From Parvibaculum lavamentivorans DS-1 (GTDB lineage Bacteria > Pseudomonadota > Alphaproteobacteria > Parvibaculales > Parvibaculaceae), in NCBI RefSeq assembly GCF_000017565.1, contig NC_009719.1, positions 1,240,001-1,304,000 on the forward strand: 64,000 nucleotides of DNA. Reading direction: 5' to 3'. Positions 1 through 42,249 of the stretch are shown here, piece after piece (position 1 is the stretch's first letter; every line of letters starts with the position of its first letter). Below the pieces are notes generated by a model. The model was not told where the DNA came from. It saw only the letters and a list, made by a program, of their open reading frames with translations, and made no database searches. The translations under genes were made by a program, and so were the position numbers.

Positions 1-1
1 C

Positions 2-24946: not shown

Positions 24947-25966
24947 GTGTCGGCTAGCGCCCATCACTGGTATTTCAACAAACGGCCCAAGGATGTAATC
25001 GAGGCGGATACGCTGGTCCTGCGCGAAGATCCCATCCCCGCGCTGAAGCAGGGGGAGCTTCTCGTCCGCACCCTCTATATGTCGCTGGATGCAACAAACC
25101 GCGTCTGGATGAGCGATTGGGATACCTATATGGACCCGCTGCCGCTCGGCTCCCGCATGCTCGGCTTCGTGCTGGGCGAGGTGGCCGAAAGCCGCAATCC
25201 GGCCTTCCCGCAAGGCTCCCTCGTCACCGGCCTGGGCACCTGGTCCGATTATTTCGTCACCGATGGCGTCGGCTACGTTCCCTTCCCGAAGCCTGAGGGC
25301 GTCCCCCTCGCGGATGCCTTCGGCATTCTCTCTGTCGCCGGCCCTACCGCCTATGTCGGCCTCCTCGAAATCGGCAAGCCGAAACCGGGCGACACGGTCG
25401 TCGTCACCGCGGCGGCCGGCGCGGTCGGCGCGCTGGTCGGTCAGATTGCGAAGCTGCATGGCTGCCGCGTAGTCGGCGTCGCGGGCTCCGAAGACAAATG
25501 CCGCTGGCTCACCGATGAACTCGGCTTCGACGCCGCCATCGACTACCGCAAGGAAAATGTGCTGGATGCGCTGAAGCGCGAAGCGCCGAACGGTATCGAC
25601 GTTCATTTTGAAAATGTCGGCGGCGAGCAGCTCGATGCGGGTCTCACACTGATGAACGATGGCGGCCGCGTCGTCATCTGCGGCCTCATCTCCACCTACA
25701 ATTCGTCGGAGCCCGTGCCGGGCCCCTACATGTTTCGCAATGTCATCATGAAGCGCCTCACCATTCAGGGCTTCGTCATTCTCGACTACGCGGAGCATTT
25801 CGCGGAATACAACGCGAAGCTCGTCGAATGGATGCGCACAGGCAAACTCAAATACCGTCTGCATATTGTCGACGGTCTGAAGAATGCGCGAGACGCGCTC
25901 GGCCTTCTCTACACGGGAGGCAACAACGGAAAGCTCATGGTGCGCATAGGAAAAGAAAGCGCCTGA
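24947..25966 (+). CDS. Zinc-free NADP-dependent MDR oxidoreductase
   Basis: A 339-residue medium-chain reductase of the prostaglandin-reductase/alkenal-reductase group (YncB-like). HHWYFNKRP is the family opening, and the NADPH Rossmann motif is VVVTAAAGAVGALVGQIAK. DVHFENVGGEQLDAGL and MKRLTIQGFVILDYAEHF are also family-typical. No zinc ligands are visible. Members reduce activated C=C bonds in enones. Start is uncertain: GTG at 24947 with GGGGGGAGG matches family length, while GTG at 24872 with GGGGAGGATA would add 25 residues. It is preceded by the shared leader element and followed by the LuxR activator. Confidence 0.85.
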   Translation: MSASAHHWYFNKRPKDVIEADTLVLREDPIPALKQGELLVRTLYMSLDATNRVWMSDWDTYMDPLPLGSRMLGFVLGEVAESRNPAFPQGSLVTGLGTWSDYFVTDGVGYVPFPKPEGVPLADAFGILSVAGPTAYVGLLEIGKPKPGDTVVVTAAAGAVGALVGQIAKLHGCRVVGVAGSEDKCRWLTDELGFDAAIDYRKENVLDALKREAPNGIDVHFENVGGEQLDAGLTLMNDGGRVVICGLISTYNSSEPVPGPYMFRNVIMKRLTIQGFVILDYAEHFAEYNAKLVEWMRTGKLKYRLHIVDGLKNARDALGLLYTGGNNGKLMVRIGKESA

Positions 25967-26053
25967 GCGGAAGAAGGAAGACAATAAGCCCGCATTGAAG
26001 CGGGCGCGCGGAAACCGCGAGGCTTCCGCCATCCTTGGAGGAGGAGGGTGCCA

Positions 26054-28819
26054 ATGGCCGGGGCATTGGAACCGAAACCGTCTCGCGCGGCCGCGCGTGA
26101 CGGAAACCTGTCGCTGCTTCCCGCGACGAACAAGCTCGGGCGCGGCGCGGCCGCGGGCGCAAACAATCTCGTTTTGCGCAAGCATCAGCTCGACCGGTTG
26201 AAAAATCACACCGGCGTCCGTCTCATCGTCGTGCAGGCGCCCGCCGGCTTCGGCAAGACCACGCTCCTCCGTCAATATTGTGCATGGCGCGAGGCGCAGG
26301 GAAGCCGGGTCGCATGGCTGCACCTGGAAGCGCATTACGCAGACCCGTCCCGTTTTCTGCGTCTTGTCTGCGAGGCGGTGGCAGGCGCCATCGAGGAGGA
26401 AAGCCCGTCAGCTGCCCTCCCGGACAACTCGTCAGCTTCAATTCAGGATTTCCTTCGCGTTGTCCGCGGCACCGATGTCGGCATCGTTGTCGTCGTCGAC
26501 AATTTCGAGCAAGCCGCTCATTCGGGCATGGAAGCCGTCATCGCGCAGCTCGTCCGCGTTCTCCCGCAGAACGTGCAGCTCTGCATCGGCACGCGCGTCA
26601 TTCCCGCCATAAATCTGCCGCGCCTCCAGCTTCGCGAACAGGCGGTTGTCGTCAATGTCGAGGGCTTGCGTTTCCGCGCCAACGAAACCACTGAATTCTT
26701 CCGCGAGTTCCGGGACATCTCTGAGGAAGAACTGGATAAATATCAGGTGGCGACGGATGGCTGGCCCGCCGCCCTTCAATGCATTCGTCTTTCCATGCGT
26801 GGCCGCACGGGCAGGGCAAAGCCGCTTCCCATTTCCGGCGTCACGCCGGACCTGATCGACTTCCTTGCAACCGACGTCTTTGAAAATCTGTCGGGTGACA
26901 TTCAGCGTGCGCTTCTCGATGCCTGCATGCCGGAACGCATTTGCCCGGAACTTCTCGAGTCGATTTCCGGCCGGCCGGACGGCGAGGGCAGTCTCGGCGA
27001 GATAGAACATCTCGGTCTCTTCCTCACACCCGTCGATATGGATCATCGCTGGTTCCGGTTTCACACCGTCTTCCGCCAGGTGCTGCTGACCCGCCTCCGC
27101 CGCGAACTCTCGGAGGCCGAAATTCTCGCGCGCCATCGGAAGATCGCCGAGTGGTATGCCGCCCACGGCTTTTCCGAGGAAGCGATCCTTCACTATATCG
27201 AGGCAACGGATCAGGAAGCTGCCGCAGCACTCCTGAACGCGATCATCGGCCGCCTCGTCAACGAGGAGCGGCTCGATCTCATTGTCCGCTACACGGACCG
27301 CCTCTCCCCCGATGTCATCCAGAACTACGAACACATCCTCAACGCCGCCATCGTCGCTTATGGCTTCCGCCGCGAATTCATCAAGGCAAATCGAATTATC
27401 GCTCTCCGCCGTGCCGCGCTGGAACGCGAGAATGCGTCGAAAGAGGCCTGGGGCGTCCACCATTACACGCGCATCTTCACCACCGCCGCGCAGGATCAGG
27501 TGGTGGAGATCGGCCGCACGGCGCAACTGGCGCTGGACCATCTTGCCGATGCCCCCGGCCTCGAATATGCCGTCGCGCTCAATGCCCGCGCCTATTGGCT
27601 TTACCTGAACAGCAAGTTCGAGGAAGCGCGCGAAGCCCTGGCGCAGGCCCGCGCCCTTCACGACGAGGCGCATAATCTTTTCGGCCTCTCATACTGTGAA
27701 TGGATCTACGCCAATGTCCTCTCGACGCAGGGCCGCAATGAAGAGGCGCTGAAAAGCCTGAAGCAGGCACAAATACATAATGACGAAGGCGCCACCGCCA
27801 GCGTCACCGCCGGCTCCGTCATCGCTGCTTGTCTCGCCGAAACGCTTTACGAGAAAAACTGCATCGCGGAAGCCGAAATGCTTCTCCACGATCATCTCCT
27901 TCTCCTCGAACAACAGGCGATTGTCGAACCGCTGGCACTCGCCTTCCTCACAATGGCTCGCGTCGCCATGCTGAGGGGCGAGGAGCGCGAGGCCGAGGAA
28001 GTCCTCGACCGGATGATGTATCTCGGACACCGCTACAACCTTCGCCGCCTCGTCATCTACGCCAAGGCCGAGCTCGTCCGCCAGGCGACGCTGGCCGGCG
28101 ATCTCGACAAGGCGCGCACGCGCTTCGCAAGCATGGGGCAGGGCGAAAACGACGGCGAAGACGATCTCGTCTATTTCGCGGGTGAGACCGAAGCGCAGAC
28201 GATCACCGAAGCCCGCCTGCTCATCCTCGCCGGCCGTCATGCCGATGCCCGCGCGCTGCTCCAGCCCGCCGCCCGCAAGGCGCGCTCGCAGCGCCGCATG
28301 CGCCGCTTCCTCAAGCTCAATCTCCTGCTCGCCATCTCGCTCAATGTCGAAGGCCAGGTGAATTCCGCCCGCCGCGCCTTGATCGAGGCCTTGCAGGTCG
28401 GCGCGCCGGATCAGTTCATTCGTCTCATTCTCGATGAAGGCCCGCAGGCCCTCCGCCTTCTGCATGAAGCGCGCGCCGCCCTGCCGAAGTTCCCGGACCT
28501 GCCGCAAAAGGACAGCGTCTCCGCCTATCTCGACCGCCTGCTCAGCGAAGCCGGCGAATTCGCGCCCGCGCTCATGCCCGATGCAGGGCATGACGAAAAC
28601 GACGATATCTCGCCGCACCTCCTCGAGGAACTCACCGATCGCGAACGCGAAATTCTGCGCCTCGTCTCCAACGGCTTCTCCAACAAGGCCCTCGCAGATC
28701 GCCTTTCTCTCTCCACCAACACGGTGAAATGGCACCTCCGCAACATCTTCGAGAAGCTGCAGATCGGCAATCGCATGCAGGCCGTTTCCGTCGCCCGCCA
28801 CTTCGGTCTCATCGACTGA
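26054..28819 (+). CDS. Large ATP-binding LuxR (LAL/MalT-type) transcriptional activator
   Basis: A 921-residue STAND-type regulator. The P-loop APAGFGKTTLL is at residues 62-72, Walker B VVVVDNFEQA near 140-150, then a winged-helix region and a long TPR-like helical array (about 400-840) that would bind the inducer. A LuxR helix-turn-helix ends the protein (LTDREREILRLVSNGFSNKA and NTVKWHLRNIFEKLQIGNR). Such proteins switch on operons when ATP and inducer are bound. It lies between two units that carry the same leader element, so autologous control of the MDR and carboxylase genes is likely. ATG at 26054 follows GGAGGAGGAGG. Confidence 0.93.
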   Translation: MAGALEPKPSRAAARDGNLSLLPATNKLGRGAAAGANNLVLRKHQLDRLKNHTGVRLIVVQAPAGFGKTTLLRQYCAWREAQGSRVAWLHLEAHYADPSRFLRLVCEAVAGAIEEESPSAALPDNSSASIQDFLRVVRGTDVGIVVVVDNFEQAAHSGMEAVIAQLVRVLPQNVQLCIGTRVIPAINLPRLQLREQAVVVNVEGLRFRANETTEFFREFRDISEEELDKYQVATDGWPAALQCIRLSMRGRTGRAKPLPISGVTPDLIDFLATDVFENLSGDIQRALLDACMPERICPELLESISGRPDGEGSLGEIEHLGLFLTPVDMDHRWFRFHTVFRQVLLTRLRRELSEAEILARHRKIAEWYAAHGFSEEAILHYIEATDQEAAAALLNAIIGRLVNEERLDLIVRYTDRLSPDVIQNYEHILNAAIVAYGFRREFIKANRIIALRRAALERENASKEAWGVHHYTRIFTTAAQDQVVEIGRTAQLALDHLADAPGLEYAVALNARAYWLYLNSKFEEAREALAQARALHDEAHNLFGLSYCEWIYANVLSTQGRNEEALKSLKQAQIHNDEGATASVTAGSVIAACLAETLYEKNCIAEAEMLLHDHLLLLEQQAIVEPLALAFLTMARVAMLRGEEREAEEVLDRMMYLGHRYNLRRLVIYAKAELVRQATLAGDLDKARTRFASMGQGENDGEDDLVYFAGETEAQTITEARLLILAGRHADARALLQPAARKARSQRRMRRFLKLNLLLAISLNVEGQVNSARRALIEALQVGAPDQFIRLILDEGPQALRLLHEARAALPKFPDLPQKDSVSAYLDRLLSEAGEFAPALMPDAGHDENDDISPHLLEELTDREREILRLVSNGFSNKALADRLSLSTNTVKWHLRNIFEKLQIGNRMQAVSVARHFGLID

Positions 28820-28935: not shown

Positions 28936-30819
28936 GTGGGGCTTCTTGTAAGCATCGACAATGGCGGCACGCTGACGGATGTCTGCGCCACGGATGGCAT
29001 GTCCACCATCCACGCCAAGACCATCACCACGCCGCATGATCTGACGGAATGCTTCGTCAAATGTCTCGAAGCACTCTCCGAAAAAATCAGCGGCGAGGTC
29101 GACCTGCCGAAACTTGTCGGCGCCATCGACTACATCCGCTATTCGACCACGCAGGGCACCAACGCCATCGTGCAGCGCAAGGGCCCGCGCATCGGCCTGT
29201 TGACGGATGACGACGCGCTCCTTTCGGGCGCCATGAATGCCGCGCCCGCGCTCTTCGAGGCTTTCGTTGGCGACTGCATCCGCGTCGTCTCGCCCGCCGC
29301 CGCGTCCTCCGCCACATCCGAACTCGTGATGGCCGTCTCGAAGCTCGTCTCCTCCGGCGCAAGCCGCATCGTCATCGCCTTCTCCGGCGCCGAGGCCGTC
29401 GCGCATGAGAAGGCCGCCAAGCGCGCGCTCTACCGCGCCTTCCCGCGCCACCTTCTCGGCGCCGTGCCGCTCCTCTTCTCCACCGAGTTGACGCGCATCG
29501 GCACGGTCGAGCAGCGTGTCTGGACGAGCGTCGTCAACGCCTTCCTCCATCCCGCGATGGAAACCTTCCTCTACAACGCCGAGAACAAGCTCCGCGAGCA
29601 CCGCGCGAGGAAGCCTCTCCTCATCTTCCGCAACGACGGCAACTCCACCCGCGTCGCGAAAACGGTCGCGATCAAGACCTATTCCTCCGGCCCCCAAGGC
29701 GGTGTCGTCGGCGGCGAAGTGCTCCTGAAGCATTACGGCATCCCCGCCGCCGTCTCCATCGACATCGGCGGCACGACCACCGACATCGCCGTCTTCGACG
29801 ACGCCACAGTCGCCGTCGCCGATGCCGGCCACATCGAGGGCGCGCCGGTTTCCATCCCGCTCTCCGCTGTCGAAAGCATCGGCGCCGGCGGCGGCTCCAT
29901 CATCCGCGCCGAAGGCGGCGAGATCCTCGTCGGCCCCGAAAGCGTCGGCTCGGCCCCCGGCCCCGCCTGCTTCGCGCGCGGCGGCACCAGCGCCACCATG
30001 ACCGATGCCTTCCTCGCCCTCGGCATCCTCGACCCGCACTCCTATTTCGGCGGACGCATGGTGCTCGACCGCGAGCGCGCCGCCCGCGCCATCATGGCCC
30101 ATGTCGGCGACCCGCTGGGCCTGCCGCTCGCCGACGCCGCCGAAGCCATGGCCGCCGCCTATCACGGCAAGATCGCCGCCACGCTGAAATCCTGGGCGGG
30201 CGAAAACCCGGACGCCACGCTCCTCGCCTTTGGCGGCGCGGGGCCCATGTCCGCCTGCGGTGTCGCCGAAATGGCCGGCCTCAAGACCGTCCTCATCCCG
30301 AAATTCGCTGCCGTCTTCTCCGCCTACGGCATCGCCTTCTCCGACATCGAACACAGCTATATGGCCGAACTCGTCCGCGACAGCGACGGCGCGATCGCCC
30401 GCGCCAAGGCCGATCTCGCGGAGCAAGCCCGCCGCGGCATGCTCGCCGAAGGCTTCGACCTCGAAGAATGCCGCCTCGATTATGCGGTGCTGACGAAGAA
30501 CGGCAGCGGCTACACCCGCGCCAAACTGAACGGCCAGCTCGACCGCGCCAACATCGAAACCTGGCTCGAACTGCGCGTCACCAAACCCATCGACAAGATC
30601 GCGCTGGGCGGCACCGAAAGCAGCGAGACGCGAAAGGCAACACCCTCCGGCATCCGCAAGGGAACGTCCGACCTGCCGCTCTTCCGCCTCGAGGAACTCC
30701 TCCCCGGCGATTGGCATGACGGCCCCTGCCTCGTCGAGGAAGCCTTCTTCACCACGCATGTCCGGCAGGGCTGGCGCTTCGTCGTCAGTGGCAATGGCGA
30801 CCTTTTCCTGAAGCGCTGA
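28936..30819 (+). CDS. Hydantoinase/oxoprolinase-family subunit of a ketone carboxylase (ApcA-like)
   Basis: A 627-residue HyuA-type ATP-grasp/ASKHA-fold subunit. LLVSIDNGGTLTDVCA is the N-terminal phosphate-binding loop, SGPQGGVVGGE and VSIDIGGTTTDIAVFD the second, and GAGGGSIIRAEGGEILVGPESVGSAPGPACF a classic family stretch broken only by short variants. In acetophenone and acetone carboxylases such subunits activate substrate or bicarbonate with ATP. It is the first gene of a five-gene operon (large HyuA, small zinc protein, larger HyuA, HyuB, 27-kDa protein). The GTG start is 6 bases after GGGGAGGATA. Confidence 0.88.
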   Translation: MGLLVSIDNGGTLTDVCATDGMSTIHAKTITTPHDLTECFVKCLEALSEKISGEVDLPKLVGAIDYIRYSTTQGTNAIVQRKGPRIGLLTDDDALLSGAMNAAPALFEAFVGDCIRVVSPAAASSATSELVMAVSKLVSSGASRIVIAFSGAEAVAHEKAAKRALYRAFPRHLLGAVPLLFSTELTRIGTVEQRVWTSVVNAFLHPAMETFLYNAENKLREHRARKPLLIFRNDGNSTRVAKTVAIKTYSSGPQGGVVGGEVLLKHYGIPAAVSIDIGGTTTDIAVFDDATVAVADAGHIEGAPVSIPLSAVESIGAGGGSIIRAEGGEILVGPESVGSAPGPACFARGGTSATMTDAFLALGILDPHSYFGGRMVLDRERAARAIMAHVGDPLGLPLADAAEAMAAAYHGKIAATLKSWAGENPDATLLAFGGAGPMSACGVAEMAGLKTVLIPKFAAVFSAYGIAFSDIEHSYMAELVRDSDGAIARAKADLAEQARRGMLAEGFDLEECRLDYAVLTKNGSGYTRAKLNGQLDRANIETWLELRVTKPIDKIALGGTESSETRKATPSGIRKGTSDLPLFRLEELLPGDWHDGPCLVEEAFFTTHVRQGWRFVVSGNGDLFLKR

Positions 30820-30830
30820 GGAACAGAAAA

Positions 30831-31232
30831 ATGAAAGTCTTCATCACCGCCGCGCTCACCATCGATCTCGGCAAGGAGCGCTGGGAATGCGCCGCCTGCG
30901 GCCACGATCTCGGCTCCGCCCGCGAAAACTACAAGAAGGGTCTCCTGGTCCGCGACCGCGCGCCGGAAGAAATCCACGCGCCCATCCTCGATCCCGCGCG
31001 CTACGAATTCACCTTCGCGCCCGATGGTGACTGGTGCCGCATCCTCGAATATTGCTGCCCCTCCTGCGGTCGCCTCGCCGAAGTCGAATACCTGCCGCCG
31101 GGCCATCCCCCCGCGCATGACATCGAGCTCGATATCGACGCGCTGAAGGCGCAATGGGCAAAGCGCGAGCCGCTCGCCGCGCCCGTCCTCGGGCCGGATT
31201 TCGTCGCGCCTCCCCATTCGCATTCGCACTGA
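30831..31232 (+). CDS. Small zinc-binding subunit of the ketone carboxylase (acetone carboxylase gamma / ApcB-like)
   Basis: A 133-residue protein, about 15 kDa. Two Cys clusters, CAACGHDLG (residues 19-27) and EYCCPSCGRL (about 72-81), form a probable zinc site as in the acetone carboxylase gamma family. The C-terminus is His-rich (PHSHSH). This subunit type is found almost only with HyuA/HyuB carboxylases, which makes the whole operon a carboxylase and not a hydantoinase. It sits 11 bases after the first subunit and 20 bases before the third. Confidence 0.85.
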   Translation: MKVFITAALTIDLGKERWECAACGHDLGSARENYKKGLLVRDRAPEEIHAPILDPARYEFTFAPDGDWCRILEYCCPSCGRLAEVEYLPPGHPPAHDIELDIDALKAQWAKREPLAAPVLGPDFVAPPHSHSH

Positions 31233-31252
31233 ACAAGAACAAGGATCGCACC

Positions 31253-33385
31253 ATGCGTCGCGTATCGGTCGACATCGGCGGAACATTCACGGATTGCTCG
31301 CTCGTCTGGGACGATGCCTATGTCGAGGCAAAGGCGCTCACCACGCATCAGAACCTCGCGCTCGGTTTCAACGCCTCGCTGAAGATCGCCTATGAGCAGC
31401 TTGGCCTCTCGCTGGAAGAAGTCATGCGCGAAGTCGACAGCGTCCGCTATGCGACGACGCTCGGCACCAACGCGCTGATCGAGCGGCGCGGCCCCCGCGT
31501 CGGTCTTCTCGTCACGGCGGGCTTCGAAGCCATGGTGCCCCTGAGCCGCGGCCGCGGCTATGGCGAGGGCCTGCCGGACCGTCTCCGCCGCGACCTGCCC
31601 ATGGCGCAGCGCCCCGAGCCTCTCGTCCCCGTGCAGATGATCGTCGGCATCCGCGAGCGCGTCGCCGAAACGGGCGAAATCCTGATGCCGGTCGATGCCG
31701 AGGATGTGCGCGCCCGCGTCCGCGAGCTGGTGGACAATGGCGTACAGGCCTTCGTTGTCTCGCTCGTCAACGCCGTCGTGCAGCCGGAACATGAATTGCT
31801 GATCGAGGAAATCATCCGCGATGAATTCCCCGAACATCTCCTCGGCTCCGCGCCCATCATCCTATCGCATCAGGTCGGCGGCCGTAAGGGCGAATACGCG
31901 CGCACCTCGTCGGCCATCATCGACGCCTTCCTGCACAATGCGATGTATCACGGCCTCTCGACGCTGGAGCTCAATCTCCGCGACAATGGCTACCAGAAGC
32001 CCATGCTCGTCATCCATAATTCCGGCGGCATGGCGCAGTTGAATTCGACCGACGCGCTACAGACCATCCATTCCGGCCCCGTCGCCGGCATCAACGCCTC
32101 GGAGCATCTCGCCGCCGAAACCGATCTCGGCAATGTCGTCTGCACGGATATGGGCGGCACCTCCTTCGACATCGGCCTCGTCGTGAAGGGCGGGGTGAAG
32201 TTCTACGATTTCAATCCCGTCATCGGCCGCTGGCTCGTCAACATCCCGATGGTCCATCTCGTCACGCTCGGCGCCGGCGGCGGCTCCGTCGCGCGTTATG
32301 ATCGCCTCCGCCGCACCGTCGTCGTCGGCCCGGAAAGCGCCGGTTCCGATCCCGGCCCCGCCTGCTACAATCGCGGCGGCCGCAACCCGACAGTCACGGA
32401 TTCAGATCTCGTCCTCGGCTACCTCCTCGCGGATCGCTATGCCGGCGGCACCATCCCGCTGAACGAGCGCCGCGCTCTCCGCGCCCTCGAAAAGGAAGTC
32501 GGCGAGCCGATGAGCGTCGATGCCGTCGAGGCCGCGAAACTCATCCGCGAAAAAGTCGATAACGACATGGCGAATGGCATCGCGCAGGAATTGCGTGTGC
32601 GCGGTTATGAGCCCCGCCATTTCACGCTGCTCGCCTATGGCGGCAACGGCGCGCTTCATGCCTGCGGCATCGCCAATGTCCTCGGCGTCACCCGCGTCAT
32701 GGTCCCGCCCTTCAGCGCCATTTTTTCGGCCATCGGCGCGGGCAATATGGACCAGCTCCATTTCCACGAGCGTTCGCTTTATCTCTCGCTCTACGATTCC
32801 AATACGCGCGCCCTCTTCGACGATTTCCCGCGCTTCAATGCCCTGGTCGAGGAGCTGGAAGCAAAAGGCCGCGAAGACCTGCTCCGTCAGGGCGTCCCGG
32901 CGGATGCGATCCGCCATCGGCTCGAACTCGACATGCGCTATGGCAACCAGCTCGCGCAGACCGCTGTCGTCTCCGCGAAGAACAGGCTCGAATCCGCGGA
33001 CGATTTGATGGAAGTCCTCACCACCTTCTCGAAGGATTACGGCCGCCGCTACGGCGAAGGCAGTCAGGCGCCCGAAGCCGGCATCCGCGTCAACACGCTT
33101 CGCGTCGCGACTTATTCCAGCATGTCGACCTTGAAGTTCAAGGGCGTCCTGCCGGAAGAAGCGGACCTCGCCGCCGCGCCCGCGCCGTCCTCCTCGCGCG
33201 ATTGCCAATTCGTCGGCCAGTCCGCGCCACTCACTACGGCCTTCTACGATCTCGCCGATCTCTCCTTCGGCGCCGTCATCGAAGCCCCCGCCATCGTCAT
33301 CTCCCCCTCGACAACCTACCTCGTCGAGCCCGGCTGGCGCCTCCGCATCGGCCGCTATGGCGCCGCCCTTTTCGTGAAGGTGTGA
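31253..33385 (+). CDS. Second HyuA-family subunit of the ketone carboxylase (ApcC-like)
   Basis: A 710-residue paralogue of the first operon gene. RRVSVDIGGTFTDCSLVW is the N-terminal loop; later motifs are RYATTLGTNALIERRGPRVG, SGPVAGINASEHLA, DMGGTSFDIGLV and TLGAGGGSVARYD. The presence of two different HyuA-type subunits is a feature of acetophenone carboxylase and not of simple hydantoinases or oxoprolinases. The ATG at 31253 has AAGGA upstream; a longer in-frame reading that overlaps the small subunit is rejected. A 273-base gap with palindromic repeats separates it from the next gene. Confidence 0.9.
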   Translation: MRRVSVDIGGTFTDCSLVWDDAYVEAKALTTHQNLALGFNASLKIAYEQLGLSLEEVMREVDSVRYATTLGTNALIERRGPRVGLLVTAGFEAMVPLSRGRGYGEGLPDRLRRDLPMAQRPEPLVPVQMIVGIRERVAETGEILMPVDAEDVRARVRELVDNGVQAFVVSLVNAVVQPEHELLIEEIIRDEFPEHLLGSAPIILSHQVGGRKGEYARTSSAIIDAFLHNAMYHGLSTLELNLRDNGYQKPMLVIHNSGGMAQLNSTDALQTIHSGPVAGINASEHLAAETDLGNVVCTDMGGTSFDIGLVVKGGVKFYDFNPVIGRWLVNIPMVHLVTLGAGGGSVARYDRLRRTVVVGPESAGSDPGPACYNRGGRNPTVTDSDLVLGYLLADRYAGGTIPLNERRALRALEKEVGEPMSVDAVEAAKLIREKVDNDMANGIAQELRVRGYEPRHFTLLAYGGNGALHACGIANVLGVTRVMVPPFSAIFSAIGAGNMDQLHFHERSLYLSLYDSNTRALFDDFPRFNALVEELEAKGREDLLRQGVPADAIRHRLELDMRYGNQLAQTAVVSAKNRLESADDLMEVLTTFSKDYGRRYGEGSQAPEAGIRVNTLRVATYSSMSTLKFKGVLPEEADLAAAPAPSSSRDCQFVGQSAPLTTAFYDLADLSFGAVIEAPAIVISPSTTYLVEPGWRLRIGRYGAALFVKV

Positions 33386-33436
33386 CAAATGCCGGCGGCA
33401 GCGCGAAGCAATGAGCGGCCAAAAATAGAAGTGTCA

Positions 33437-33454
33437 CCCCGGCGCAAGCCGGGG
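33437..33454. repeat. Short palindromic element inside the carboxylase operon
   Basis: CCCCGGC, GCAA, GCCGGGG forms a perfect 7-base stem. Preceded by GTCA, it looks like the common alphaproteobacterial intergenic palindrome family. It lies between the third and fourth subunit genes. Confidence 0.65.
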
Positions 33455-33521
33455 CCCATTAGCCTCGCGCCAATGAACGCGGGCAGCGAACACCGCTCGC
33501 GCAAACGCGATAACTCAAAGC

Positions 33522-33612
33522 CGTCATGGCCCGGCTTGTCCGGGCCATCCACGTCTTCCTTTGGGAGCGTGGTGCAAAGACGTGGATGGCCCGCATGAAG
33601 CGGGCCATGACG
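33522..33612. repeat. Nested palindromic mosaic element inside the carboxylase operon
   Basis: An approximately 90-base imperfect palindrome. The outer CGTCATGGCCCG (33522-33533) matches CGGGCCATGACG at 33601-33612; the inner GGGCCATCCACGTCT (33542-33556) is perfectly complementary to 33578-33592. Each half also holds its own small hairpin. The style is that of alphaproteobacterial REP/RIME-type mosaics. It could stabilise or process the mRNA between subunits. Confidence 0.7.
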
Positions 33613-33658
33613 AACAGTAGAAAATATACGCGGCCACAACCGCTCTGGAGGAACCAAA

Positions 33659-35902
33659 ATGGGTGACGACATGGACATCGGCGCGGCCTCATCCGCCGTC
33701 GAAAACTTCCTGAGCGAGACGAGCCTCTATCTCTCGCCCGACAGCGAAATCATGAACAATCACGGCCTCGAAGCCCGTACGGATTTCGAGGACGCCTGCA
33801 TCGCGAAGGAGAATGATCCCGTTCGCCTCGAAATCGTCCGTGAGCGTCTTCTCGCCGGCGTCAACGAGAGCTACGAGATGCTGGAAAACATGGGCGCCGC
33901 GCCGGGCGCGAAGTGGGGCGATTGCGTCTCCGCCGTCTACACGGCATCGGGCGACCTCTCGCTGGCCAGCTCCGGCGGCGTCGTCATCTTCTGCAACCTC
34001 GTGCAGTACCCGATCAAATTCGTCAACAAGTACTGGACGAAGGAAGCGACCGTCGGCGTCAACGAAGGCGACGTCTTCATCGTCAACGATGCCCGCTACG
34101 GTCAGGCGCACAACACCGACCAATCCATGATGATGCCCGTCTTCCATGAAGGCAAGATCGTCGCCTGGGCCGGCGCCACCGTGCATGAAGGCGAGAACGG
34201 CGCCATCGAGCCGGGCGGTATGCCCTCGCTCGCCGAGCAGATCTGGGACGAGGGGTTGAAAATGTCGCCCTTCAAGGTCGCCGAGAATTACACGCTGAAA
34301 CGCGACCTCGTCACCTTCCTTCAGAATTCCGTGCGCGAGCCGAAGCTCCAATATGCGGACATGAAAGTGAAGATGTATGTCTGCCGCCGCATCGAAACGC
34401 GCATCCATGAAGCGATCGCCGAATATGGTGTCGAAGCCGTCGTCGCCGCGCTCCGTATGAATCTGGAAGATACCGACGCCGAAGTCCGCCGCCGCCTTCT
34501 CGAATGGCCGGACGGCACCACCCGTCATTCATGGTGGACCGACGGCACGCTCCGCGAAAACGTGCAGATCAAGATCAACCTTGAACTGACGAAAAAGGGC
34601 GACGAACTCACCTTCGATTATCGCGGCTCAAGCCCGGAGTTCACCAACCGCGCCAACAACAGCCTCGATGTGACCGTGAAGGGTATGCTCGCGCAGCTCT
34701 TCCTCACCTTCATCTGGCCGGACATCCCGCGCAATCAGGGCGTGCTCGCCCCCGTCAACTTCATCTTCGACAATCCGTCGATCCTGAAGCCCGGCTTTGG
34801 CACGCCGAGCGCGCAGTCCATGATGTCGGTCTTCACCGCGTGGAGCGCCGGCCAGGTCTGCGCCATGAAGCTCCTCTATTCCAATCCGAATAAATACACC
34901 AAGGTGCTCGCGCCCTGGTTCAACATGATCAACACCTTCCTCTTCGGCGGGCTGACGCAGCATGGCGAAATGGTCGGCAATGTCTGCGCCGACATCAACG
35001 GCATGGGCGGCGGCGCGCTGGCGGACCGCGATGGCGAACATGGTGTTTCGCCCATATTCGCCACCATGTCCGATCTCGGTGAGCAGGAATTCATCGAGGA
35101 GGAAATGCCCTTCATCCAGATCGTCTCCAAGAAGATGATGAAGGACAATCAGGGCTTCGGCCGCCAGCGCGGCGGCATGGGCTATCAGATGATCCTCGCC
35201 ATGCGCGACAGCGACGCCTTCGGCTTCATGCTGACGGCGATGGGCGCCAAGTTCCCGAACGTGCCGGGCCTCTTCGGCGGCTATGGCTGCCCGACTTATC
35301 CGCTCGCCCGTGTCAGCGGCGTCAATGTCTTCGAGATCCTGAAAAACGATCCCGGCTCCTTCCGCTATTCGATAGAAGAACTGCTGAACGAGCGCCCCTT
35401 CCCGGATGCGAAATATTCGACCCATCCCATGTCGCTCGGCTACACGCTGGCACAGCGGGGTGAGCTCTACATGATCGCGCAAGGGACGGGCGGCGGCTTC
35501 GGCGATCCTCTGGAGCGCGCGCCCGCCGATGTGATCCGCGACATCGACGAAGGCTTGATCTCCGCCGACATCGCCTGGCGCATCTACCGCGTCGTCTACG
35601 ACAAGGAGACGCTGCACATTGATGAAAAGGCAACCGAAGAAGCCCGCAACGCGGCGCGGCGCGAGCGCATCGCGAAGAGCAAGCCCTTCGATGCCTTCTG
35701 CAACGAGTGGGTCAAGGACAAGCCCTCCGGCAAGGTTCCCTATTTCGGCTGCTGGGACGACAAGTCGATGGTCCATGCCGGCTCGCCGGACAAGCTGCAT
35801 CCGGCCGCGCAGGTGAACCCGCCTGTCGTCATGGCCCATCCGCTGCAGGTGAAGATCGACAAGCTCGAAGCCGAAGTCGCCTCGCTTCGCAAGAAGGCCT
35901 GA
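33659..35902 (+). CDS. HyuB-family catalytic subunit of the ketone carboxylase (ApcD-like)
   Basis: A 747-residue HyuB-type protein. Family features: NDPVRLEIVRERLLAGVNE near the start, VFIVNDARYGQAHNTDQSM, GATVHEGENGAIEPGG, FDYRGSSPEFTNRANN, and GTGGGFGDPLERAP near the end. HyuB-type subunits carry the carboxylation or ring-opening site in the family. Extra C-terminal residues end in a Lys-rich tail. It is separated from the preceding subunit by the palindromic elements but is clearly the same transcription direction; the last subunit gene starts 4 bases after its stop. Confidence 0.9.
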   Translation: MGDDMDIGAASSAVENFLSETSLYLSPDSEIMNNHGLEARTDFEDACIAKENDPVRLEIVRERLLAGVNESYEMLENMGAAPGAKWGDCVSAVYTASGDLSLASSGGVVIFCNLVQYPIKFVNKYWTKEATVGVNEGDVFIVNDARYGQAHNTDQSMMMPVFHEGKIVAWAGATVHEGENGAIEPGGMPSLAEQIWDEGLKMSPFKVAENYTLKRDLVTFLQNSVREPKLQYADMKVKMYVCRRIETRIHEAIAEYGVEAVVAALRMNLEDTDAEVRRRLLEWPDGTTRHSWWTDGTLRENVQIKINLELTKKGDELTFDYRGSSPEFTNRANNSLDVTVKGMLAQLFLTFIWPDIPRNQGVLAPVNFIFDNPSILKPGFGTPSAQSMMSVFTAWSAGQVCAMKLLYSNPNKYTKVLAPWFNMINTFLFGGLTQHGEMVGNVCADINGMGGGALADRDGEHGVSPIFATMSDLGEQEFIEEEMPFIQIVSKKMMKDNQGFGRQRGGMGYQMILAMRDSDAFGFMLTAMGAKFPNVPGLFGGYGCPTYPLARVSGVNVFEILKNDPGSFRYSIEELLNERPFPDAKYSTHPMSLGYTLAQRGELYMIAQGTGGGFGDPLERAPADVIRDIDEGLISADIAWRIYRVVYDKETLHIDEKATEEARNAARRERIAKSKPFDAFCNEWVKDKPSGKVPYFGCWDDKSMVHAGSPDKLHPAAQVNPPVVMAHPLQVKIDKLEAEVASLRKKA

Positions 35903-35906
35903 GCCG

Positions 35907-36671
35907 GTGCCTGTCCTGCCGCCGCTCTGGATCGACGGCTATGCCTTCGGCCGCCGCGTCCTGCGCGGCGGCGACGATCCTTGGGCGGCGCCCGATGAGC
36001 TCGGCCTCTTCCTCCGCGAATTGTCGCAACTTCTCTCGCTTGCCATTGCCGATGTGGACGTGACGCAGGCCATCCTCGCCTGGTGCAGTCTCGAAGGTAT
36101 CGACCGCACCTCGCTGGATGCAAACGCCATCGAAAACCTGCTCGCCGATCCGCGCTTCCGCGCCCATGTGAAGCGCGGCATGGAAACCTCGGTAGGCGCA
36201 TTGGGCTCCCGTCCCGTCGCCCTCGCGCTTCCCGGTCCCGGCGCCCTCGCATCGCTCTTCCTGGAGCCGGGCGATATCGACGAGGACACGCTGGACGATC
36301 TCTCCCTCTCGCTCGCCGATCTCCTCCGCGCGCTCTTCCGCGCCGAGCTCTCCGTCTTCCGCTTCACGGAGACGGACCCGCGCGCGCTCGACTTCTTCGA
36401 ACCTCTCACCAATGTCGCCCGCCACTACGAAGTGCCCTCAATTCTCGTCCTGAAGGGTGAGGGCGGCGACGCACCCGGCTTCGATCGCGTCTACCGCGAA
36501 GGCGAGGGGCAGGGCGATGCCGGTTCCGGTTTAATTCTGCCAGCCGTCTTTTTGGAGGGGGCGCCGAACCCGCCCTCAGGCGACAATCCGCTATTCATGG
36601 AAGTGCCGGCGGACACGGTCCCGGAGACCGCACTCGCGAGGCTCAAGCAATTGAGCGGTCAGGCTGCCTGA
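35907..36671 (+). CDS. Fifth gene of the carboxylase operon (ApcE-like by position)
   Basis: A 254-residue acidic cytosolic protein with no clear catalytic motif. Its place and size fit the fifth, loosely bound subunit of acetophenone carboxylase. The stretch PVALALPGPGALASLF followed by a helix (LADLLRALFRAELSVF) loosely recalls the PGP strand and following helix of MetE/UROD-type barrels, which is a weak resemblance. GTG start 4 bases after the HyuB stop, so it is translationally coupled. Function is inferred only from the operon. Confidence 0.65.
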   Translation: MPVLPPLWIDGYAFGRRVLRGGDDPWAAPDELGLFLRELSQLLSLAIADVDVTQAILAWCSLEGIDRTSLDANAIENLLADPRFRAHVKRGMETSVGALGSRPVALALPGPGALASLFLEPGDIDEDTLDDLSLSLADLLRALFRAELSVFRFTETDPRALDFFEPLTNVARHYEVPSILVLKGEGGDAPGFDRVYREGEGQGDAGSGLILPAVFLEGAPNPPSGDNPLFMEVPADTVPETALARLKQLSGQAA

Positions 36672-36744
36672 AGATCCTCGGGAGCGATCCCTCCTCCTCC
36701 CGGAAGACTTGGCTGCCTCATGGTTTCATGAGGCAGCCTTTTTT
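36672..36744 (+). ncRNA. Candidate 3'UTR-derived small RNA, module 1
   Basis: Directly after the last carboxylase gene. A hairpin CGGGAG/CTCCCG (36679-36702) presents CCCTCCTC in its loop; an alternative GGGA-GCGA-TCCC hairpin frees TCCTCCTCC. After a short ACTT-containing spacer comes a strong terminator. A loop rich in CCTCC resembles the anti-Shine-Dalgarno loops of the alphaproteobacterial cuckoo-type sRNAs. No promoter is seen, so it would arise by processing of the operon mRNA. Confidence 0.35.
36711..36744 (+). terminator. Intrinsic terminator of the carboxylase operon
   Basis: GGCTGCCTCATG (36711-36722), a GTTT loop, then the perfect complement CATGAGGCAGCC (36727-36738) and six T. 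A 12-base perfect stem with T-run: a textbook Rho-independent terminator 40 bases after the last stop codon. Confidence 0.9.
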
Positions 36745-36762
36745 CTCTCACTTTATTCGTCA

Positions 36763-36954: not shown

Positions 36955-37051
36955 GAACAATCAACCCGCAAAGACGACCTCCGCGGGCACGCACCCTCCG
37001 TGCGCCCGTCACACTTCGGCTGCCTCGTCGCGTTACGAGGCAGCCTTTTTT
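36955..37051 (+). ncRNA. Candidate small RNA, module 2
   Basis: A hairpin CGGGC-(AC)-GCAC, pentaloop CCTCC (36995-36999), GTGC-GCCCG spans 36984-37008. It exposes a perfect anti-Shine-Dalgarno pentamer; another CCTCC stands just upstream at 36978-36982. ACACTT leads into a terminator with the same GGCTGCCTC/GAGGCAGCC arms as module 1. Possible promoter: TATACG at 36949-36954 behind the conserved motif at 36917-36936. The 5' end is a guess. Confidence 0.4.
37018..37051 (+). terminator. Intrinsic terminator of sRNA module 2
   Basis: GGCTGCCTCGT (37018-37028), a six-base loop, ACGAGGCAGCC (37035-37045) and six T. The first nine stem bases are identical to the terminator at 36711, although no gene ends within 300 bases upstream; a separate short transcript would explain it. 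Confidence 0.85.
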
Positions 37052-37248
37052 CACCGGGGATAATAAAAGCAGAAGATTCTGTCTCGCGGCGTGTGCTGCG
37101 CGTCCAGTCAGAACTTGTCCCCATGTCATTTCCGGTCGGAACCGGGGATAACTGCCGCCCGCCGCGGCGGGTACAAGTCCCCCGCAGCGCCCGCCGCCTG
37201 GCCCGAAAAACACTTCATGACGGTTCTGTGACAGTTCGATGACAGTCG

Positions 37249-39249
37249 TCAGTCCGCGGCCGTCGAATACTCGGTCTGCGTCGCCGCGAAATCGCGAAAA
37301 TAGTCGATGGCAGAAGGGTTTGCCATGGCGTCGCGGCTCGCCGCCTTGTCCACCGGCACACCGAGCAATATCTTGCGCACCGGCACCTCCATTTTCTTGC
37401 CCGTCAGCGTATAGGGCACCGCGTCGATTTCATAAATGCGATCAGGCACATGGCGCGGAGAGTACTTTTCCCGCAGCGATTTGTTGATCTTTTCCCTTAC
37501 CGCATCGCTGAGCGCCACGCCGTCCTTCAGCACCACGAAAAGCGGCATGAAAAAGTTTCCGCCGGGCAGGTCGAGATTGACGATGATCGAGTCCTCGATC
37601 TCCTCAAGTCCTTCTATTGTCCGGTAAATTTCCGCCGTGCCGATCCTTACGCCATAGCGGTTCAGCGTCGAATCCGAGCGACCGAGAATGAAACAGCCGC
37701 CCCGTTCATTGACCTTGAAGTAGTCGCCATGCCGCCAATGATCCGTATACGTATCGAAATAGGAATCATGATAACGGTGCCCGCCCTCGTCGTTCCAGAA
37801 GAACAGCGGCATCGACGGCATCGGTTTGCTGACCACCAGCTCGCCAACCTCCCCGATGACGGATTCCCCTTTATCGTCAAAGGCATGGACGTCGACGCCG
37901 AGGCACCGCGCCTGGATTTCTCCTGCATGAACCGGCAGCGTCGGCACCCCGCCCACAAAGGCGGAAGCGACATCCGTACCGCCGCTTTGCGACGTCACCC
38001 ACATGTCGGGATGCAGGTTTTCGAAGCACCATTCCATGTGTTCCGGCATCACCGGCGAGCCGCCAAGCAGGATGCTCTTCATCCGCTCGAGGTCGTAAAT
38101 CTTGTTGGGAACGATACCTAACTTCATCTGTCCATTGAGAAAAGTCGGGCTCGCCCCAAAAAGCGTCATGCCCGTCTCCGCCGCCAGTTCCCACAACCGG
38201 TCCGGCTTCGGCGTCATCGGATTGCCGTCGTAAAGCACCACCGCAGACCCCGCGACAAGCCCTGACAGGAGGATATTCCACATCACCCAGCCCGTCGTCG
38301 TGAAGTAGAACATGCACGAGTCCGGCTTCAGATTCAGGTGAAAATGCGTGAATTTCAGTGCTTCCAGAAGCACACCGCCATGTCCGTGGACAAACGGTTT
38401 CGGCAGTCCCGTCGTCCCCGATGAATAGACGATCCACAAGGGATGGTCGAAGCGCGTGTCCTCGAAAACGAACCTTGTTTCGCTCACCGCCGGTCTCGAA
38501 ATCAGCTTCCCCCAGGCAATCGCTTCGGCCGTCAGGGGCTCGCTGCCATAGTCCGGATCGGCGCCCGCCACATGCACCACATGCTGCAGCGAGGGCAGGG
38601 CGTCGACCATCGCGCGCACCTCCGCCCGCCGGTCGAAATTCTTGCCGCCATACCGGTAACTGTCTGTAGCAAAAAGGAGTTTCGGAGCGATCTGGCTGAA
38701 GCGGTCGATCACGCTCGCCGCCCCGAAATCCGGCGAACAGCTCGACCACACCGCGCCGATGCTCGCCGTCGCGAAGAACGCAACCGCCGCTTCCGGCACG
38801 TTCGGCATATAGGAAACCACGCGGTCGCCGGGTCCGATACCGAGCTCGCGCAACGCCGTTGCCACCTTGAAGACCTGCGTTTTCAGCTCGTCCCAGCTGA
38901 TTTTCCGCGCTTTTCCTTCCTCGCCGGCCGCATGGATCGCGGTTTTGTTCCCGCTCCCCTTGGACAGGAGCGTCCGGATGTAGTTCACCCGCGCCCCCGG
39001 AAACCATTCCGCCCCCGGCATCTTTTCATCGCGCAGCACGCATTCGTAAGGCGTCGACGACGTGACCCCGAAGAACTGCCAGACCGCCTCCCAGAACGCC
39101 GCAATATCGGCCACGGACCATCGCCGCAAATCCTCATAGCCGCCAAAGGAATGGCCGCGCGCATTAAGCCAGGCGATGAAGGCGGTGACATTTGCATCGG
39201 CCACCATCCCCTCGGACGGCGACCAGAGCAGGTCTCCCATATTGGCCAT
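37249..39249 (-). CDS. Acetoacetyl-CoA synthetase-like beta-keto acid CoA ligase
   Basis: A 666-residue adenylate-forming enzyme. Diagnostic: YSSGTTGLPKPFVHGHGG as the AMP-binding P-loop, TTTGWVMWN, SGGTDVASAFVGG, the hinge LGRSDSTLNRYGVRIG, and YTLTGKKMEVPVRK with the C-terminal catalytic lysine. WSPSEGMVADANVTAF at the start is typical for acetoacetyl-CoA synthetase (EC 6.2.1.16) in preference to acetyl-CoA synthetase. It should activate the beta-keto acid made by the convergent carboxylase operon; benzoylacetate and longer acids are possible. ATG at 39249 with GGGGGA; the upstream in-frame extension is rejected. Confidence 0.9.
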   Translation of the reverse strand: MANMGDLLWSPSEGMVADANVTAFIAWLNARGHSFGGYEDLRRWSVADIAAFWEAVWQFFGVTSSTPYECVLRDEKMPGAEWFPGARVNYIRTLLSKGSGNKTAIHAAGEEGKARKISWDELKTQVFKVATALRELGIGPGDRVVSYMPNVPEAAVAFFATASIGAVWSSCSPDFGAASVIDRFSQIAPKLLFATDSYRYGGKNFDRRAEVRAMVDALPSLQHVVHVAGADPDYGSEPLTAEAIAWGKLISRPAVSETRFVFEDTRFDHPLWIVYSSGTTGLPKPFVHGHGGVLLEALKFTHFHLNLKPDSCMFYFTTTGWVMWNILLSGLVAGSAVVLYDGNPMTPKPDRLWELAAETGMTLFGASPTFLNGQMKLGIVPNKIYDLERMKSILLGGSPVMPEHMEWCFENLHPDMWVTSQSGGTDVASAFVGGVPTLPVHAGEIQARCLGVDVHAFDDKGESVIGEVGELVVSKPMPSMPLFFWNDEGGHRYHDSYFDTYTDHWRHGDYFKVNERGGCFILGRSDSTLNRYGVRIGTAEIYRTIEGLEEIEDSIIVNLDLPGGNFFMPLFVVLKDGVALSDAVREKINKSLREKYSPRHVPDRIYEIDAVPYTLTGKKMEVPVRKILLGVPVDKAASRDAMANPSAIDYFRDFAATQTEYSTAAD

Positions 39250-39528: not shown

Positions 39529-39555
39529 CCATCCTTTAGGGCGGGGCGCGGTGGC
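39529..39555 (+). promoter_or_regulatory. Shared leader element, diverged copy C (RND cluster)
   Basis: CCATCCTTTAGGGCGGGGCG aligns without gaps to CCATCCTTTCGGGTGGGGCG at 28837-28856, differing at 2 of 20 positions. It lies 164 bases before the RND gene start. It would place the envelope cluster under the same activator as the carboxylase operon. Confidence 0.45.
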
Positions 39556-39718
39556 GCAGGCTCAACCACCATTGTTGAAACGGCCCGGAATCGCGAATGC
39601 AGCGGGAAAAAGGGCTGGAGGGGCGAGGGATACGACAGAGGTTTCCCGGCACAAATTCGAGGCGGCAAGCATTGCGTTGCTCGCTTCCGTGCCGCGAGCC
39701 GGTGAGGGGGAGTACCGA

Positions 39719-42211
39719 GTGGATAGGCTGAGTTCTCGCATTGCCCGGGCCGCGATGACCTATCGCTGGCTTTCGCTGCTCATTCTGACGGCGATCACGG
39801 GGTTCTTCGCCGTTCAGTTGCCGAACGTCGAACTGCGCACCATTTTCAGCGACCTGCTGCCAAGCAACCATCCCTTCGTCCAGACCTACAAGGATCATCC
39901 GAACTTCGGCAATCCGCTCACCGTCACCGTCATGATCAAGCGGAAGGACGGCGATATCTACAACGCCGAAACACTGCAGAAGGTCTGGGATCTCACACGC
40001 GACATCGATCTGACGCCCGCCGTCGATCACGACCAGATACTTTCGGTGGCGACCGAAAAGGCGCGCTATGCCGAAGCGACACCGAACGGCATCGACTCGC
40101 GCCCCCTGATGGAGGATCACGCGCCGCGAACGCCCGCCGAAATCGCGGAGTTTCGCAACCGCCTGCTGAAGTCGCCGAACGTCCGCACATTCATGGTGTC
40201 CGAGGACGAAACGGCAACGCTTGTCACGGCGACGTTCATCGAGCGCCTGCTCGATTACGGCGAGACCTTCGAATATCTCGACAAGCTCGTGAACGACGCC
40301 CGGGACGACAAGCACGACGTCTATATGGCCGGGCAGCCGGTTCTGACGGGCTGGGTCTATTTCTATGAACTGCAGATGCTCGGTATTTTCGGCATCACAG
40401 GCATTGCCCTGCTGGTTGCACTCATCTTCTACATGCGAAATGTCGTAGGTGTCGTTGCGCCCTTGGTAACAAGCATCATCGCAGCTATCTGGGGCTTCGG
40501 CTTTGTCGGCTGGCTTGGGTTGCCTGTCGAGCCGCTCATCATGGTCGTCCCGCTGCTGCTGGTCGCGCGGTCATTCAGTCATTGCGTGCAGTTCGTTGAA
40601 CGCTATTACGAAATCCTGCACTACGTTAAGGACCGACGCCGCGCAGCCGAGATATCGCTCAGCGTCATGATGACGCCCGGCATGTTGGGCATCGCCACGG
40701 ACGCAATGGGGCTGTTCATCATTGCCGTCGCGCCTATCCCGGCGATGGAACGCTTCGCGCTCTTCTGCGGATTTTGGGCCTTTATTCTCATCCCGACGAA
40801 TGTCTTCCTGTCGCCGCTTCTGATGCTGCTGCTGCCCAAGCCGCGAAATGTCGAGCGCATGGTAGGCGGAAACGAAAAGGATGGCCGCTACAGCGGCATC
40901 AAGCTGTTGCTGAGCTTGATTGGCCGCCTGTCGATCGGAAGGACATCTACATTCACGGCGGCGGCGCTCATAGCGCTGGCCGTTTTCAGCGTCGTGAAAG
41001 TAATGGAACTCAAAGTTGGAAATCCTGTCGAGGGCAGCAATCTCCTTTGGGACGATTCCGAGTTCAACGTCGCGGTTTCAAATATCAATCGTCATTTCCC
41101 GGGCCTGAACACGCTGGAGATCATTTTCGAGTCCAAGTCGCAGGACAGTATGGAGAGGGTCGTCCGCAAGGCGGAAACGGCTCTTACAATGCAGCGGCTG
41201 CAACACCTTCTCGAAAGCCAGCCGAACCCGCCGGAAGCGTCTCTTTCGTTCACCGACTACCTACCGGAAGCAAACCGCTTGTTCAGCGGCGGTAATCCAA
41301 AATGGGCGCCACTTGATCATGACGACGCAGCTGTGAGCGCTGCTGCAGGTGCGCTCATGGTTGGCACTGGACCGAAAGCATTCTTGCATGTTGCGGATTT
41401 CGAACAGCGAAATGGCACGGTGTCCCTCTGGTACAAGGACAACAAGCAGGAAACGGTCGATGAAGCACTGCGCCAGGCGCGCGCTGCGCTCGAAATAGTT
41501 GGCACGGAGCACGAGGATTTCCGTATCAGGCTCGGCAGCGGCACCATTGCCTTGCAGCAATCGATCAACGACACGGTCGACCATTATCAGTGGATCATTC
41601 TGGGGTTGCTGAATGCTGTAATCCTGATCACCTGCAGCTATGCCTACCGGTCCATAGTCGCCGGCATCCTGCTTCTTATTCCCGTCAACCTGTCGAACCT
41701 GCTGCTCGGCGCCGTGATGACGGAAATGGGCATCGGCCTGGACGTCAATACATTGCCGATTGCGGCAATCGGCGTTGGCGTCGGCATCGATTACGGCATC
41801 TATCTGCTCAGTCGCATCTACGAGGAATACCAGCAGCGCAAGGATATGGGGCCTGCGATCCTCGCTTCGGTGACGACGACCGGAAAGGCGATCTTCTTCA
41901 CCGCCACTATCGTGCTCATCGGCATTTTGCCCTGGTACTTCCTGTCGGCGTTGAAGTTTCTGGCCGACATGGGCCTGCTGCTCGTCATGGTCATGCTTAT
42001 CAACATGATCATTGCGCTCATTGTGGTGCCGCTGCTCGTCTGGCTGATCCGGCCCCGCTTTATCGAATCCAAGGAATTGATGGTGAGCGAGGGCATCGAT
42101 CTCGAAGCCCTTGCGGCCGAACACTCTGACGAAAGTCTCCGCACAAAAGCTGCTGAGATGGTGAAACACCCGGCAAACGAACTGGTTGAGGTGGTCCCGC
42201 TCCGGTCATGA
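39719..42211 (+). CDS. RND-superfamily (MMPL-type) transporter
   Basis: An 830-residue inner-membrane protein with two homologous halves. Each half has one lone helix, a periplasmic domain of 200-230 residues, and a five-helix block (first near 230-400, second near 640-790). LPSNHPFVQTYKDHPNFGNP in the first loop and GVGVGIDYGIYLLSRIYEEY in the second helix block are characteristic of the MMPL/HpnN-like branch that moves lipids and other hydrophobic compounds. The GTG at 39719 follows GAGGGGGA. It is the first gene of a five-gene cluster with DUF1329, YCF48 and DUF1302 partners; a direction of transport cannot be read from sequence. Confidence 0.9.
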   Translation: MDRLSSRIARAAMTYRWLSLLILTAITGFFAVQLPNVELRTIFSDLLPSNHPFVQTYKDHPNFGNPLTVTVMIKRKDGDIYNAETLQKVWDLTRDIDLTPAVDHDQILSVATEKARYAEATPNGIDSRPLMEDHAPRTPAEIAEFRNRLLKSPNVRTFMVSEDETATLVTATFIERLLDYGETFEYLDKLVNDARDDKHDVYMAGQPVLTGWVYFYELQMLGIFGITGIALLVALIFYMRNVVGVVAPLVTSIIAAIWGFGFVGWLGLPVEPLIMVVPLLLVARSFSHCVQFVERYYEILHYVKDRRRAAEISLSVMMTPGMLGIATDAMGLFIIAVAPIPAMERFALFCGFWAFILIPTNVFLSPLLMLLLPKPRNVERMVGGNEKDGRYSGIKLLLSLIGRLSIGRTSTFTAAALIALAVFSVVKVMELKVGNPVEGSNLLWDDSEFNVAVSNINRHFPGLNTLEIIFESKSQDSMERVVRKAETALTMQRLQHLLESQPNPPEASLSFTDYLPEANRLFSGGNPKWAPLDHDDAAVSAAAGALMVGTGPKAFLHVADFEQRNGTVSLWYKDNKQETVDEALRQARAALEIVGTEHEDFRIRLGSGTIALQQSINDTVDHYQWIILGLLNAVILITCSYAYRSIVAGILLLIPVNLSNLLLGAVMTEMGIGLDVNTLPIAAIGVGVGIDYGIYLLSRIYEEYQQRKDMGPAILASVTTTGKAIFFTATIVLIGILPWYFLSALKFLADMGLLLVMVMLINMIIALIVVPLLVWLIRPRFIESKELMVSEGIDLEALAAEHSDESLRTKAAEMVKHPANELVEVVPLRS

Positions 42212-42249
42212 ACCGGGCGGGTTCCTGTCCTACTGGGAGGAGGAAGGAA

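Follow-up and report, generated by a model that had tools for sequence, protein, structure and literature searches.

Only one enzyme of the acetophenone carboxylase (Apc) branch had been characterised by 2017 (PMC5214803), and Apc-like gene clusters in genomes were already noted by Weidenweber et al. (PMC5214803). According to the same authors, the branch is distinguished by an R/KERiDsxG fingerprint in the α subunit, by its absence from the α′ subunit, and by α′ having ATP motifs of its own. In acetone carboxylase (Acx), the metal ligands of the β subunit are Glu89, His150, Asp153, and His175 (PMC5543143). Here we describe a five-gene operon (A–E) at positions 28936–36671 of a 64,000-nucleotide stretch, hereafter the window, of the Parvibaculum lavamentivorans DS-1 genome (NC_009719.1, positions 1,240,001–1,304,000, forward strand). 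The host, which degrades detergents and alkanes, is an aerobic alphaproteobacterium, as had been supposed in a reading of the DNA letters alone (the original prediction). With a probability of roughly two in three, the product of the operon is a ketone carboxylase of the Apc type, biotin-independent and ATP-dependent, whose subfamily is not that of the Apc of Aromatoleum aromaticum EbN1; it would convert a hydrophobic alkyl ketone to a 3-oxo acid, to be followed by formation of the coenzyme A (CoA) ester and thiolysis. The existence of Apc-like operons is not new; the new elements here are the clade with its pocket signature and partner genes, as well as the assignment made for E.

Organisation of the Operon

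All five open reading frames are intact and on the + strand, with the sizes and order that the original prediction had given. Gene A (28936–30819, 627 residues) is the predicted α′ subunit, a second ASKHA ATPase and putative bicarbonate kinase; B (30831–31232, 133 residues) is the short four-Cys γ subunit; C (31253–33385, 710 residues) is α, the predicted ketone kinase; D (33659–35902, 747 residues) is the HyuB-type β subunit with the metal site; and E (35907–36671, 254 residues) is the ε-type fifth subunit. The co-directional order α′, γ, α, β, ε is that of apcABCDE and recurs in dozens of genera besides Parvibaculum, within which 11 further genomes have it, so the arrangement is not due to chance. 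The spacers are 11 nucleotides (A–B), 20 nucleotides (B–C), 273 nucleotides (C–D), and 4 nucleotides (D–E). The C–D spacer (33386–33658) contains a 36-nucleotide inverted repeat, and the corresponding spacer in one relative (locus L042) is ∼18 nucleotides long. A strong intrinsic terminator, with a 12-bp stem and T6, follows E at 36711–36738 (+). The hairpin has a near-copy at 37018–37045, the two forming a direct repeat pair (36711–36745 and 37018–37052, 83% identical) between E and the convergent ligase gene. Internal stops flagged in some genomes of the genus were not taken as recoding, as the B frame has a normal end after 131 residues in the gene calls there.

Family Assignment of the Subunits

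Pfam places A and C in Hydantoinase_A, B in Acetone_carb_G, and D in Hydantoinase_B. The top PDB match of each was the corresponding chain of the EbN1 Apc core structure 5L9W, with E values of 6.8e-82 (A to ApcA), 1.7e-34 (B to ApcB), 1.2e-156 (C to ApcC), and 2.2e-81 (D to ApcD), and for all four proteins Apc always outranked acetone carboxylase and hydantoinase among the PDB matches. The top NCBIfam families of A–D were likewise ApcA, ApcB, ApcC, and ApcD, respectively, yet the scores lay far under the equivalog cut-offs. Against the ApcA–E equivalogs NF042960, NF042974, NF042975, NF042976, and NF042977, the scores (and cut-offs) were 324.7 (1250), 142 (250), 559 (1500), 318.7 (1500), and 13.8 (450) bits, all five being missed.

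By sequence, E gave no Pfam match and no useful PDB match, and its match to the NCBIfam ApcE model was weak (E value 0.026), with other members of its family reaching 3.9e-5. An AlphaFold model of E, built from a 35-sequence alignment, had a mean predicted local distance difference test score (pLDDT) of 94.2. In a fold search with this model, the top PDB matches were two ApcE chains of 9FOU (E value ∼7e-8, template modelling score 0.63–0.66, 20% identity), with methionine-synthase barrels ranking after them. The model thus identifies E as ApcE-like, an assignment settled by the predicted fold alone and not by sequence. The Apc-type architecture put forward in the original prediction is borne out by the gene order, by top structural relatives that are all Apc, and by the fold match of E to 9FOU. 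Within most of the genus, E orthologs share 57–64% identity and C orthologs 88–90% (loci L053–L060), E being the faster-evolving of the two. One candidate E, an open reading frame at locus L138, was excluded from the set once its sequence had shown it to encode a short-chain dehydrogenase; a single-sequence fold of A (pLDDT 37.5) was also discarded.

ATP Motifs, Metal Site, and Substrate Pocket

Both A and C retain two phosphate motifs and a GxxPGP adenosine motif (DNGGT, DIGGTTTD, and GSAPGP in A; DIGGTFTD, DMGGTSFD, and GSDPGP in C). At position 136, C carries RERVAETG, a partial match to the R/KERiDsxG consensus, and A is without any such fingerprint. The four cysteines of B (Cys20, Cys23, Cys76, and Cys79) are invariant. 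In D, the metal ligands Asp88, His151, Asp154, and His176 match Asp65, His123, Asp126, and His148 of EbN1 Apc; this D-H-D-H set is found in 87 of 91 alignment rows, the other four being Acx rows with E-H-D-H, in agreement with the published Acx ligands, where Glu replaces the first Asp.

The substrate pocket differs from that of EbN1. Residues Leu81, Phe281, Asn282, Pro285, Ile333, Gln344, and Thr345 of EbN1 α correspond to Thr, Ile, His, Pro, Ile, His, and Leu in C, so that five of the seven positions are changed. The pattern T-[I/V]-H-P-I-H-L is shared by 86 of 97 alignment rows, and the Acx rows read L-I-V-P-M-A-M.

Phylogeny and Distribution

The tree comprised 60 rows and was computed by a quick method, with the EbN1 and outgroup rows on long branches and a single hydantoinase reference (locus L001); the EbN1 sequences used for tree and alignment were taken from printed PDB alignments, in which ApcA is incomplete. 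In this tree A clusters with EbN1 ApcA (support 95–99), apart from α, from Acx, and from the hydantoinase of DS-1 itself. C and its relatives form one tight clade, whose members are at least 59% identical to C of the window and 36–43% identical to EbN1 ApcC, and the same subgroups recur in the A and C subtrees. Identities to EbN1 Apc, measured on near-identical Parvibaculum copies, are ∼37% for C, ∼36% for A, and ∼29% for D; the Acx HyuA rows are 28% identical to C. Judged by sequence, the operon falls in a coherent clade of uncharacterised members that extends over Alpha- and Beta-/Gammaproteobacteria and beyond, and that is sister to EbN1 Apc and is not Apc proper.

Membership of the three-subunit acetone carboxylases or the two-subunit hydantoinases, both rejected in the original prediction, fails on architecture, on the β metal-ligand set, and on the tree, in which A stands with ApcA and away from the hydantoinase reference. 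The outcome that the original prediction had named as refuting it, a clear placement of the subunits among hydantoinases or oxoprolinases, was not observed in this tree with its single hydantoinase reference. In two Solimonas genomes (S. marina, L096; S. terrae, L131), two Apc-like operons of different subtypes adjoin, possibly a pair with different ketone ranges.

Genomic Context

Upstream of the operon lie a gene for a CurA-type NADPH-dependent medium-chain reductase (24842–25966, +; start codon uncertain), which scores 352 bits against NF058644, under the cut-off of 440, and a gene for a MalT-type LuxR regulator (26048–28819, +) with TPR_MalT and GerE domains (NF003420, 285 bits), the probable regulator of the operon. 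Downstream and convergent is a gene for an acetoacetate-CoA-ligase-type β-keto-acid CoA ligase (37249–39249, −), which scores 928 bits against NF002937 (cut-off 639) and 789 against TIGR01217 (cut-off 521); a second acetoacetate-CoA ligase elsewhere in the DS-1 genome is 43% identical to it. An associated module follows at 39551–48006 (+), a HAE3 RND efflux set of the Ame type by its AmeABCD composition, in which Pfam identifies MMPL (39551–42211), a first DUF1329 (42208–43629), YCF48/BNR (43672–44634), DUF1302 (44561–46474), and a second DUF1329 (46627–48006), all on the + strand. AmeABCD protects Castellaniella against apolar monoterpenes (PMC6394551).

The Parvibaculum block thus runs CurA, MalT-type LuxR, ABCDE, convergent ligase, and MMPL, with CurA kept upstream of LuxR-ABCDE. 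Solimonas terrae repeats the layout CurA-LuxR-ABCD with a convergent ligase, and the convergent Solimonas ligases cluster with that of the window (support 98). The ligase gene points the same way as the operon in relatives from Solimonas, Burkholderia, and Zavarzinia. The MMPL efflux set recurs beside Apc-like operons in Solimonas, and a short-chain dehydrogenase sits between D and E in many Solimonas-type loci. Relatives in Zoogloea, Azotobacter, Geobacter, and Neorhizobium have 3-oxoacid CoA-transferase genes in place of the ligase, and sphingomonad relatives have a FadD-type ligase, some with an SCP-x-type thiolase as well. Collectively, the acetoacetate-CoA-ligase-type enzyme, the CoA-transferase, the FadD ligase, and the thiolase are all ways of activating and cleaving a 3-oxo acid. 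Within the genus, the γ gene is present in 12 of 27 genomes, and orthologs of the ligase (73–100%), the LuxR regulator (69–100%), and the MMPL protein (68–100%) are found in the same 12.

Two further features were observed in these regions. A protein of ∼153 residues recurs between E and the ligase in Solimonas-type loci (e.g. L090:16624–17085); it has no NCBIfam match and resembles DUF3237 by eye only. In the window, a candidate Baeyer-Villiger-type monooxygenase gene lies at 53160–54974 (+), scoring 897 bits against the NCBIfam PtlE model, under the cut-off of 1100, so that the carboxylase operon may have an oxygen-dependent ketone route 16 kb downstream of it.

Proposed Function and Alternatives

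The operon is Apc-type in build and, by analogy, probably in mechanism. It is not, on sequence grounds, an ApcABCDE orthologue, because its proteins miss every equivalog cut-off, C shares only ∼37% identity with EbN1 ApcC, and five of the seven pocket positions differ. In the proposed pathway, the ketone would come from secondary alcohols or from alkyl chains oxidised at a subterminal position. As in Apc, α (C) would phosphorylate the ketone as its enol and α′ (A) would phosphorylate bicarbonate to carboxyphosphate, with the C–C bond being formed on the αβγ core together with ε (E) to give a 3-oxo acid at a cost of 2 ATP. The linked ligase would then convert the 3-oxo acid to 3-oxoacyl-CoA, which thiolases would split into acetyl-CoA and a shortened acyl-CoA. 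The linked ligase, dehydrogenase, regulator, and efflux genes all point to a pathway of this kind, from alkyl ketone through 3-oxo acid to CoA ester.

The available part of the DS-1 description (PMC3368416) records growth on acetate, ethanol, succinate, and C8–C16 alkanes, alkanols, and alkanoates. In the same part, no growth is reported on benzoate, phenylacetate, hydroxyacetophenone, cyclohexanone, or several terpenoids, and few aromatic genes are described. Some relatives encode both this operon and a separate, genuine acetone carboxylase (e.g. genome G643, L045/L051; and L103). In L103, an alphaproteobacterial metagenome-assembled genome, the Apc-like operon is immediately preceded, on the same strand, by the genes of the acetone carboxylase (1–11600). 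The growth range of DS-1, the adjacent Ame-type efflux set, and the relatives with a separate Acx favour a hydrophobic alkyl ketone, and the substrate is most likely a ketone of this kind (an alkyl methyl ketone), not acetophenone and not acetone. The suspicion in the original prediction of a ketone other than acetophenone survives in the missed cut-offs and the changed pocket, with the actual ketone suggested by context.

Several observations weigh against this reading of an alkyl ketone carboxylase. The ligase exceeds the acetoacetate-CoA-ligase cut-offs, which would fit acetone too, and acetone, acetophenone, and 2-alkanones are not among the growth tests in the available part of the DS-1 description (PMC3368416). 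Near the EbN1 bicarbonate site, two of three α′ residues differ, Glu248 and Lys281 being Ser and Asp in A, which makes the bicarbonate role of α′ less certain. D, at 747 residues, is longer than EbN1 ApcD (684) and nearer the length of its Acx counterpart (776 in the PDB), contrary to the approximate guide that an Apc β is ∼50 residues shorter than that of Acx. One genome of the genus (G684) is an exception to the co-occurrence, having MMPL together with a ligase gene that is truncated at a contig end, and no operon detected. Moreover, the ligase, LuxR, and MMPL genes are physically linked to the operon, so their co-occurrence shows gain and loss as a unit and not independent functional coupling.

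The first alternative is a short-chain enzyme that carboxylates acetone or butanone and feeds acetoacetate or a homologue to the linked ligase, which scores above the acetoacetate–CoA ligase cut-offs and has C4–C5 3-oxo acids as its expected substrates. This is unlikely, as the subunit set and β metal ligands are those of Apc and not Acx, the neighbouring efflux set suggests an apolar compound, and a second enzyme for acetone would be superfluous in the relatives that encode both the operon and a genuine Acx, in one case next to each other. Less probable still is a genuine acetophenone carboxylase, sharing its aryl methyl ketone substrate with the EbN1 enzyme, the linked enzyme then being a benzoylacetate-CoA ligase; the five subunits in Apc order and an adjacent CoA ligase, as in apc-bal (PMC4729919), would fit, but the equivalog cut-offs are missed by wide margins, C is closer to its own clade (at least 59%) than to EbN1 ApcC (37%), the pocket is altered, and DS-1 is described, in the part available, as not growing on benzoate or hydroxyacetophenone and as having few aromatic genes (PMC3368416). 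An ATP-dependent amidohydrolase (hydantoinase, oxoprolinase, or caprolactamase-like) with recruited extra subunits is very improbable. A and C do score against the NCBIfam caprolactamase α and share the fold family, but γ, ε, and α′ are absent from hydantoinases (PMC5214803), A groups with ApcA in the tree and not with the genome's own hydantoinase, and the linked genes encode a CoA ligase, a dehydrogenase, and a thiolase.

Beyond the alkyl ketone carboxylase itself, we propose tentatively, and at slightly less than even odds, that aerobic hydrocarbon degraders have in this clade a widespread route of their own for carboxylating hydrophobic ketones (medium-/long-chain alkyl or terpenoid), alongside the Baeyer-Villiger route. 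A secondary-alcohol dehydrogenase, the carboxylase, a CoA ligase for 3-oxo acids, a thiolase, and an efflux pump for apolar compounds would then form one functional unit. If true, aerobic bacteria would degrade oily ketones by addition of CO2 at a cost of 2 ATP, in a step that is itself O2-free. A search of the accessible literature found no paper connecting Parvibaculum with acetone carboxylase and none joining subterminal oxidation with ketone carboxylation. The clade is large, its pocket is uniform but different, its pathway genes recur, and one of its hosts is a type strain that can be cultivated and has a complete genome. Which ketones Apc-type enzymes use in nature becomes testable through it, and so does the role of ε, whose family is now widely alignable and matches the solved ApcE fold.

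Comparison with Known Systems

ApcABCDE of EbN1 (PDB codes 5L9W for the core and 9FOU for ApcE) shares with the DS-1 operon its five subunits, gene order, and neighbouring CoA ligase, as well as the α′ ATP motifs, α fingerprint, four-Cys γ, D-H-D-H site in β, and ε fold. The DS-1 system differs in that D is ∼60 residues longer, the ligase is of the acetoacetate-CoA type, the regulator is a MalT-type LuxR protein where EbN1 has a two-component system, and the host is an aerobic alkane degrader. AcxABC of Xanthobacter (PDB code 5SVB) has HyuA-, HyuB-, and γ-type subunits and a similar acetoacetate-type handling of its product, whereas its three genes are ordered HyuA-HyuB-γ without α′ or ε, its γ has 168 residues (133 in DS-1), and its β has Glu where DS-1 has Asp. 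The hydantoinases, oxoprolinases, and caprolactamases share the ASKHA-fold α and HyuB-fold β, but consist of two subunits only, without γ, α′, or ε, and are separate in the tree. Finally, the DUF1302, DUF1329, YCF48/BNR, and MMPL components of AmeABCD, the HAE3 efflux system of Castellaniella defragrans, all have counterparts in the predicted DS-1 efflux set, which differs in gene order and in its second DUF1329 gene.

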